NCBI RefSeq assembly: GCF_000299395.1 | Contig: NC_018656.1 | Coordinates: 372,001 to 436,000, forward strand | From: Candidatus Nitrosopumilus sediminis | Lineage (GTDB): Archaea; Thermoproteota; Nitrososphaeria; Nitrososphaerales; Nitrosopumilaceae | Reading direction: 5' to 3' | DNA length: 64,000 bases | Translations under genes and position numbers: made by a program | Shown here: positions 15,981 to 18,462 of the stretch, in pieces | How the letters are laid out: every line of letters begins with the position of its first letter | How positions within the stretch are numbered: position 1 is the stretch's first letter | The notes under the pieces: generated by a model | The model's input: the letters and a program-made list of their open reading frames with translations, nothing else | The model's database searches: none | What the model was told of the DNA's origin: nothing

Positions 15981-16694
15981 ATGCCTGAATTTGGTACAAT
16001 TGCAATGGTGGTGTTTGCAATTGCAATCGTGGGAATCATAGCAGTAACTGCAAAATCACGACTAACTTCAAATAATACAACTTTGGATATTGGTGGTAAA
16101 ACAACAATGTCTGACACTCTTTACAAACTAGCAATGATTGGGATTCTTGGGATAATTGTTTTTGGCGCATACATGGCAATTTCTGGTTATAACACTGACA
16201 TTTACCCCTTAGATAGAATTCGAGGAAATCTTGATGGGATTGTGTCATCTTCTGATCCTGATGTAATTCGTGATCATTTGGTTGCAATTCAATCTGATTT
16301 AGATTTAGTGATGATGAATATTCCTGAAACAACTGATGAAAGTGGTAAAATCATTGCCAAAAACCCTGTTTGGATATTTGGCACCGAATCAACCAACTTT
16401 ATTCGAATTCAAAACAATATAGATACAATGTTTGCCGGCCTTGATGAAATATCTTCTCTCTCAAAAGACAATTCTGCATATCATACAGGAATGTTAGACA
16501 TTAACGATAGAGCACTATTATTAAAAACCAACATAATGGATGCCACTCCATACATGTATGTCAGTCCTGCAAACATGATGTTTAGTGCTATTTGGATTGC
16601 AGCAATAATTGGAATTATTGCTATCTTAAAAAGAAAGAAAGTTTTAACATGTCTCTTCCAATTGCATTTGTCAAAATTGAATATACGTCACTAA
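15981..16694 (+). CDS. Membrane protein with N-terminal PEFG motif and duplicated GT2 C-terminal domain
   Basis: A 237-residue protein of unknown function. It begins MPEFGTIAMVVFAIAIVGII followed by a basic stretch (AVTAKSR), which is the PEFG-CTERM sorting signature normally found at the C-terminus of secreted archaeal proteins. About 20 polar residues later comes a near copy of the last 170 residues of the upstream glycosyltransferase: a helix, the soluble part with NTDIYPLDRIRGN, and a helix ending KRKK. An in-frame stop lies 18 bases before the ATG, so there is no upstream extension. Three membrane segments would place the conserved part outside the cell. Its last 17 residues lie antisense to the convergent coiled-coil gene. 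Confidence 0.75.
   Translation: MPEFGTIAMVVFAIAIVGIIAVTAKSRLTSNNTTLDIGGKTTMSDTLYKLAMIGILGIIVFGAYMAISGYNTDIYPLDRIRGNLDGIVSSSDPDVIRDHLVAIQSDLDLVMMNIPETTDESGKIIAKNPVWIFGTESTNFIRIQNNIDTMFAGLDEISSLSKDNSAYHTGMLDINDRALLLKTNIMDATPYMYVSPANMMFSAIWIAAIIGIIAILKRKKVLTCLFQLHLSKLNIRH
16131..16639 (+). repeat. Second copy of the 509-bp direct duplication
   Basis: Second copy of 15367-15875. The similarity begins at the helix ahead of the soluble domain and stops just after the KRKK codons. The stop codon and final codons of the minus-strand coiled-coil gene lie inside this copy, so the arrival of the copy probably redefined that gene's 3' end. Confidence 0.9.
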
Positions 16695-18072
16695 ATCTTA
16701 CTTCCCATTTATCTGCACAATCTAAAATTTTACTTACTGCCCACTGTCTGACTTCGTGTGGTAATGGAATTTTTTCTCCAGATTCGATTGAAACTCTATC
16801 AAACAAGTTTACAATGTCTGCAGTTTGTGATGCCATATTTTCTATATCCTTTGCAACCCCATATTTTGATTCAGCATTCATTCTGATGTTTGATTGATAC
16901 TCTGATAGTTTCAACAATGCCATCATCTCTTTTGATGAATCGCTAGATGCCTTACTTGTGACCTCTTTGACTGATTGTAGTTCTTCAAAGAGTTTCTCGG
17001 ATTTCTTGTGAAATTCAATTGTAGATTCGTCTTGTCTTTTTAGAGTATCTGAAACTGATGAGATTTTTTGTTCAATGCTATTTGTCTTATCAAATACATT
17101 CTGTTTGAAATTGGAAAATTCTTCCTGGACTGATTTTAGTCCTTCTCCAACAAATGCTGTTGAATCTGCTCTTTGTGATAATGAACTGATTTCAGTCTCG
17201 ATTTTATCAATTTTACCTCCTAAATCTTTGATGGACTCTAGGCTCAAATTGTCCAAAGAATTTGCTTTTGATGCTACGGTATCAAATTGTTGTTTAAGAC
17301 CGTCAATTACCCCTCCAAGAGAATCAATCTTTGATGCTTTAGCTGATATGGCATCAATTGTAACTTTGATTGCATCTAATTCAGCATTAAGATTTGCACT
17401 AGATGATATTCCTTCAGAAATTCTTCCGAATTCTTGTTTGAGGCTATCAATAATTTGTGAACCTGTATCTAATTTTGCAGTCTTTCCTGATATTTCCTCT
17501 ATAGTATTTTTCAAACTATCCATTTCCGAACCAATTTCTAAAAATGAATCTGTCTTTCCAGAAACTTTTCTTAAATCTTCCCTTACTTCGTCAATTCTTT
17601 GAGCAATTTTAATAATCATTTGAGAATTGTTTTTAATCGAATTCATACTTTCCTCTACTTGTTGTGATAGCTCTTGAGATTTTGATGATTTTTGTAATTC
17701 TGAAATTCTACTGATCTCTTGTTCAAGTTTTGCTGTTTGATCATTGATCTTGCTTACAAGATTTGATTGTGTTCTTACTTGATTTAATCCCGCGTATAGT
17801 TTTTGAGTATCATCTTCTATAATGTTGATTTGTTTTGATTGCTTTTGAATATGTTCTAGTGTTGAGGTTAATGTGTCGATCATCCCCTTCATTGAAACTA
17901 ACACTTTCTGATTTTCCCCAAAGATTTTTGTCATGACTTTGATCTCTTTCTGTAATGCTTTGTTAGAATCTGAAACTGATGCTACTTTTTTTAGTAAGAC
18001 TGATGGACTGGGCTCTTTTTTAGTAGTTTTTTTTGTCTTAGATGTACTTACCTTCGTACTTTTAGCAACCAT
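16621..18072 (-). CDS. Long coiled-coil protein
   Basis: A 483-residue protein with a basic Ser/Thr/Lys-rich N-terminus (MVAKSTKVSTSKTKKTTKKE) and then continuous heptad-rich helix from about residue 40 to 400, with loose internal repeats (IDSLKQEFGRISEGI and IDGLKQQFDTVASKA). It resembles the coiled-coil part of methyl-accepting chemotaxis or SMC-like proteins, but has no membrane segment, ATPase motif or signalling hairpin I can name. The C-terminal 80 residues (ENMASQTADIVNLFDRVS onward) look globular. Its 3' end overlaps the PEFG gene by 74 bases. A structural or chromosome-associated role is possible; function unknown. Confidence 0.75.
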   Translation of the reverse strand: MVAKSTKVSTSKTKKTTKKEPSPSVLLKKVASVSDSNKALQKEIKVMTKIFGENQKVLVSMKGMIDTLTSTLEHIQKQSKQINIIEDDTQKLYAGLNQVRTQSNLVSKINDQTAKLEQEISRISELQKSSKSQELSQQVEESMNSIKNNSQMIIKIAQRIDEVREDLRKVSGKTDSFLEIGSEMDSLKNTIEEISGKTAKLDTGSQIIDSLKQEFGRISEGISSSANLNAELDAIKVTIDAISAKASKIDSLGGVIDGLKQQFDTVASKANSLDNLSLESIKDLGGKIDKIETEISSLSQRADSTAFVGEGLKSVQEEFSNFKQNVFDKTNSIEQKISSVSDTLKRQDESTIEFHKKSEKLFEELQSVKEVTSKASSDSSKEMMALLKLSEYQSNIRMNAESKYGVAKDIENMASQTADIVNLFDRVSIESGEKIPLPHEVRQWAVSKILDCADKWEVRFSDVYSILTNAIGRDMLKLSFFLR

Positions 18073-18133: not shown

Positions 18134-18241
18134 TTACTTGTTTACAACTTCTGGTTCATGAAGTAATTCATGAAATGTCTTTTCAGCCAAACCATTTGCT
18201 GTTTCAATAAACCCTCGTGGGCAATATTCACATTGAATCAT
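18134..18241 (-). CDS. 35-residue C2H2 zinc-finger-like micro-protein
   Basis: A short ORF starting MIQCEYCPRGF and ending PEVVNK. It has two cysteines (C4, C7) and two histidines (H24, H28) spaced C-x2-C-x16-H-x3-H, close to a C2H2 zinc finger with a slightly long middle loop. The start codon lies directly beside a perfect palindrome covering the promoter, and a TATTAATA box sits about 25 bases upstream, which supports a leaderless gene. It is not part of an operon. Function unknown; a small DNA-binding or metal-sensing protein that regulates its own promoter is conceivable. Confidence 0.6.
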   Translation of the reverse strand: MIQCEYCPRGFIETANGLAEKTFHELLHEPEVVNK

Positions 18242-18266
18242 ATAGTACGGTATGGTACCGTACTAT
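18242..18266. promoter_or_regulatory. Perfect 11-bp inverted repeat (operator candidate)
   Basis: ATAGTACGGTA and TACCGTACTAT are exact reverse complements separated by TGG. The palindrome begins one base upstream of the micro-protein start codon (minus strand) and runs to the edge of its TATA-like box, so it would cover the -1 to -25 region of a leaderless promoter. A dimeric repressor binding here would block transcription. Confidence 0.65.
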
Positions 18267-18462
18267 TAATAGTGAGGTGATTACAAAGTAACCAATTATG
18301 CAGTCAGATACCCCAGGTCATATCTCTTCATTTAATTCAGATGACCTACTCATCACTCTGCATATCGTTTATCATATTTGGGCATAAAGAGGTTATAGAT
18401 TTTGAATAGTTGTGAGCCTAAGATTTCTCAAGAAATATTTTCAAATTTACAATCCGCAATCA

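Follow-up and report, generated by a model that had tools for sequence, protein, structure and literature searches.

The gene for a protein of only 35 residues in Candidatus Nitrosopumilus sediminis is preceded by a perfect palindrome, which raises the question of whether this sequence is an operator and, if so, which protein reads it and what else it controls. We examined the locus within a stretch of 64,000 nt (hereafter, the window), in the 1.69-Mb genome and in relatives. The elements around the gene are:

18134..18241, minus strand: micro-ORF for a 35-aa Cys2His2 microprotein, 35 codons plus TAA, MIQCEYCPRGFIETANGLAEKTFHELLHEPEVVNK
18242..18266, no strand assigned: perfect inverted repeat with 11-bp arms and a 3-nt spacer, ATAGTACGGTA-TGG-TACCGTACTAT
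18246..18262, minus strand: core operator TACGGTACCATACCGTA, consensus TACNGTA-YNR-TACNGTA with 10 bp from centre to centre, one of the five copies in the genome
18264..18271, minus strand: TATA box of the micro-ORF, TATTAATA, kept in relatives
18276..18293, minus strand: second inverted repeat, GGTTACTTTGTAATCACC (GGTNA-N8-TNACC), next to the TATA box on its upstream side
18299..18362, minus strand: unannotated C/D-box sRNA gene, directly upstream of the micro-ORF promoter

Judging from its sequence, the micro-ORF is a real, strongly conserved protein gene. It encodes the C-x2-C-x16-H-x3-H pattern that the initial annotation had read in it (C4-x2-C7-x16-H24-x3-H28), with the four Cys and His residues invariant in the 30 genomes compared; it is present in 31 of the 37 genomes of the genus, counting that of the window, as well as in 59/61 genomes of the family Nitrosopumilaceae, and it evolves under purifying selection (median pairwise dN/dS of 0.055). 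The product, of less than 70 aa and with four invariant, putative Cys/His ligands, falls within a broad definition of zinc microproteins; it is not a classical C2H2 finger, because its x16 loop departs from the required C-x2-4-C-x12-H-x3-5-H and Pfam zf-C2H2 is not matched. Searches with the microprotein retrieved nothing from Pfam beyond a sub-threshold match to Fer2_2, no usable match from PDB and no homolog in the viral contigs searched, and the AlphaFold model of the protein alone was poor (pLDDT 56). The start codon is situated around 25 nt downstream of the TATA box, so the transcript is probably leaderless. Just downstream of the micro-ORF there is a gene for a 483-aa coiled-coil protein (16621-18072, minus strand), with only weak coiled-coil matches in Pfam.

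The arms and the spacer of the palindrome are as initially annotated, but the repeat abuts the ATG of the micro-ORF, with zero bases in between, and is not separated from it by one base. Likewise, it is indeed located at the promoter and spans the core promoter only in part, because most of it lies between the TATA-like box and the start and it overlaps the box just at its outer edge. No other palindrome in the window has arms of at least 11 bp and a loop of up to 8 nt; nevertheless, six first-order Markov controls of the window contained 0–2 such palindromes each, and we therefore discarded its rarity as evidence. What makes the palindrome meaningful is its conservation among relatives: the motif TACNGTA-N3-TACNGTA occurs within the last 30 nt before the ATG in 52/52 micro-ORF loci examined, in agreement with the proposal of an operator-like dyad at this promoter, and it still directly precedes the start codon in genera g22, g25, and g28, where the neighborhood of the gene differs. 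We are practically certain that the palindrome is one instance of a conserved, functional operator with this consensus.

The search for the palindrome elsewhere, as had been suggested, revealed its conserved core in relatives and at five exact sites in the genome, and allowing one mismatch added none:

Site 1: before the micro-ORF
Site 2 (locus L056): before the gene for a 117-aa winged-helix protein (wHTH117)
Site 3 (locus L057): before a gene that diverges from trpE and encodes a Cys/His protein of 62 aa
Site 4 (locus L058): before radA, encoding the archaeal Rad51/RecA (Rad51 family by Pfam)
Site 5 (locus L059): before a gene that starts with TTG and encodes a Cys-containing protein of 128 aa

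From one to five exact sites were found in 57 of the 61 genomes of the family, with the reversed control pattern appearing at most once in any genome; at the level of the order, the operator occurs in 33/151 genomes, and no site was found in any of 117 genomes outside the Nitrosopumilaceae. Forty sites from other genera were inspected, and 37 of them precede the same genes, namely those for wHTH117 (14 sites), the microprotein (10), RadA (9), or the small Cys protein beside trpE (4). Of the other three, one precedes an Orc1/Cdc6-like gene and one a gene for an uncharacterised 157-aa protein, while the last, near a contig end, could be assigned to no gene. The first of these genes, identified in genome G193, is:

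L133:1783-3096, plus strand: Orc1/Cdc6-like AAA+ gene with the operator in front, named from its sequence

In front of radA, the wHTH117 gene and the micro-ORF, the site runs from shortly past the TATA box to the start codon or to a position just short of it, and most sites in other genera likewise have the TATA box on one side and a leaderless start codon on the other, an arrangement that is classic for steric repression in archaeal promoters. In front of the trpE-side gene, the operator is directly upstream of the TATA box and is therefore not transcribed; additionally, some copies are direct instead of inverted repeats, and the motif is often not self-complementary (TACGGTATGGTACGGTA). For these reasons, it is as DNA that the operator works, rather than as a hairpin in RNA. 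Certainly, a stem of 11 bp with a loop of 3 nt could form, and a C/D sRNA gene lies upstream on the same strand, from which a transcript might run on into a hairpin or terminator; yet the motif also precedes genes without any sRNA, and the sites upstream of a TATA box contradict such a role, which we rejected as scarcely credible.

The sRNA gene itself contains the boxes C (GTGATGA, 18350-18356), D′ (CTGA, 18337-18340), C′ (ATGAAGA, 18325-18331), and D (CTGA, 18304-18307), as well as a terminal stem (TGCAG/CTGCA), all conserved in the genus, and Rfam C/D-box models matched weakly, below gathering, at the same place and strand. A target search with the D guide found no match with fewer than three mismatches besides itself, and the two guide regions hold a 7-nt mutually complementary stretch (AGGTCAT/ATGACCT). 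In other genera, where the micro-ORF has moved, the sRNA gene is not upstream of it, indicating that it is a neighbor and does not belong to the regulon. The second inverted repeat, which is not enriched in the window and is absent from the other regulon promoters displayed, is kept in 50/52 micro-ORF loci, being 18 bp long in 49 of them, also where the gene has moved. This conservation suggests that it is the site of another regulator, which would act on the microprotein alone.

One of the operator targets is also the candidate repressor:

G000:C1:507318-507659, minus strand: wHTH117, a 117-aa winged-helix protein

Its predicted structure is confident (pLDDT 90), and a Foldseek comparison matched the C-terminal part to winged-helix DNA binders, including Sso10a-2, AspA from pNOB8, F-93 from SSV1 and ArsR/HxlR repressors, with the redox repressors SqrR, YodB, and QsrR also among the fold neighbors. 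The gathering score of Pfam HTH_45 is not reached (15.5 bits for the copy from the window genome, versus a cut-off of 25.5; the best member has an E-value of 0.00065), the S24 domain is absent according to Pfam, and there is no recognisable sensor domain, while Cys79 is conserved without exception in alignment A2 and to at least 90% in A3. In an independent collection, 66/69 wHTH117 loci carry an exact operator in their own promoter, 62 of them at the same offset from the ATG, and in the other three the spacer is 1 bp longer. A relative with 36% identity is encoded in the tailed-virus-like contig IMGVR_UViG_3300009376_001036 (L250:2486-2869, plus strand); it keeps the predicted recognition-helix region (IRMKKSFLNYLHL) intact, no operator was found on this contig, and this relative may be the viral counterpart of the host regulator.

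The genomes with the wHTH117 gene are the same as those with the operator, both in the family (57/61) and in the order (33/151), although this co-occurrence amounts to few independent events, namely one gain plus divergence in two of the genera (Fisher p = 0.007 at the genus level). Conversely, G181 and G189 (genus g49), which we take to be Cenarchaeum-like genomes, keep the microprotein and lack both exact sites and wHTH117. Since the operator tracks wHTH117 and these two genomes retain the microprotein without either of them, the binder is most likely wHTH117 and not the microprotein. The initial annotation offered autoregulation by the microprotein or control by a dimeric repressor; the latter fits the dyad, while the former is probably wrong. 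In its favor, the microprotein gene adjoins the palindrome, is conserved and has a potential zinc site; nonetheless, besides the evidence from G181 and G189 and the lack of a classical C2H2 match, a 17-bp dyad is unlikely to be recognized by so short a protein (35 residues) with just one zinc site, and we give this possibility very little credit. The small number of independent events also leaves some room for another DNA-binding protein reading the operator, with wHTH117 merely being a target whose presence tracks it, but this appears improbable given that wHTH117 is a DNA binder by its predicted fold, carries the operator at its own promoter and matches its presence genome by genome. All four genomes of the family without exact sites keep RadA, and degraded half-sites persist at their radA promoters and, where present, at the microprotein promoters (loci L237, L238, and L243-L247). 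These remnants hint at a diverged or replaced regulator, and a diverged, undetected one may remain in these four genomes.

Altogether, the operator, its conservation, the target genes, the co-occurrence with wHTH117 and the predicted winged-helix fold lead us to consider it probable that a small, autoregulated radA regulon exists in Nitrosopumilaceae and that the palindrome is its operator, with wHTH117 as dimeric autorepressor and an SOS-like trigger. A dimer of wHTH117 would bind TACNGTA-N3-TACNGTA and, because of the position of the site between the TATA box and the start codon, would block RNA polymerase at the radA, wHTH117 and microprotein genes; by shutting its own promoter, it would create negative feedback, similar to that of LexA, centered on the RadA recombinase. 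The presumed trigger, DNA damage or replication stress, would release wHTH117, and RadA and the Cys/His microproteins would then rise together. That wHTH117 represses its targets is likely; taken by itself, the identification of the signal as DNA damage or replication stress, for which radA is the best clue in the gene content, deserves somewhat less than even confidence. Doubtful, in our opinion, is a more far-reaching version in which Nitrosopumilaceae have their own LexA-independent SOS, with a tiny winged-helix autorepressor that uses one operator to keep radA and two Cys/His microproteins low, and the microproteins being effectors or anti-repressors that act on RadA filaments or report on them.

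Alternatively, this repressor and its operator could respond to S phase or replication licensing, as part of a cell-cycle regulon; radA is among the targets, an Orc1/Cdc6-like AAA+ gene lies behind a site in G193 and the expression of radA in Sulfolobus is periodic (PMC2246294), but the recurrent targets include no division or core replication gene, and we deem this unlikely. It is quite unlikely, too, that wHTH117 is an ArsR-like metal or redox sensor of small Cys/His protein genes to which radA is secondary. The Cys/His microproteins among the targets, the ArsR and redox repressors among the fold neighbors and the conserved Cys79 would agree with such a switch; against it, radA is no metal gene and yet one of the targets that vary least from genus to genus, no metal transporter is among the targets and the conserved Cys is a single one.

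Compared with the LexA/RecA SOS system, the radA regulon shares a dyad operator in the promoters of a recombinase gene and of a winged-helix binder gene (here, radA and wHTH117) and, presumably, negative autoregulation. Conversely, wHTH117 has 117 aa and no S24 self-cleaving peptidase domain as that of LexA, the operators are unrelated, the regulon comprises only 3–5 genes and, unlike in the classical SOS response, repair genes other than radA are outside of it. Archaea are reported to lack LexA (PMC2246294, PMC1224876). In Sulfolobales, DNA-damage regulation involves Orc1-2 and the hexanucleotide ANTTTC (DDRE) (PMC9738581), and there is also the FHA repressor ArnA (PMC10470591). The Orc1-2/DDRE system resembles the one proposed here in that transcription responds to damage in an archaeon and a winged-helix regulator acts on its own promoter, with the parallel of an Orc1/Cdc6-like gene being an operator target in one genome, but the regulator is an AAA+ Orc1 instead of wHTH117 and its motif is ANTTTC instead of TACNGTA-N3-TACNGTA. 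Expression of an archaeal radA is likewise regulated in Halobacterium, from a different phylum, where radA1 showed a 7-fold induction after UV; the passages covered of that work report no operator or dedicated regulator (PMC1224876). Proteins Sso10a/HTH_45 and AspA from pNOB8 share the winged-helix fold with wHTH117 (Foldseek, around 15–18% identity), although the latter is below Pfam gathering scores, has an extra N-terminal beta module and would act at a promoter operator, whereas the former have chromatin or centromere roles. The haloarchaeal zinc-finger microproteins are similarly very small and have a putative zinc site, but with two C(P)XCG motifs instead of C-x2-C-x16-H-x3-H (PMC6562870, PMC11241148). 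A literature search, with few subscription papers within reach, retrieved no mention of this operator and none of a radA regulon in Thaumarchaeota.

It has long been asked how recombination genes are controlled in archaea without LexA, and few cells in the ocean are as abundant as those of ammonia-oxidizing archaea. The circuit proposed here for these archaea, whose SOS-like character we infer from gene content, would be previously undescribed. Now that the operator is defined, a candidate repressor is named and four targets are seen to recur, the question of control without LexA becomes experimentally testable, and the regulon gives a first functional context to unannotated microproteins.
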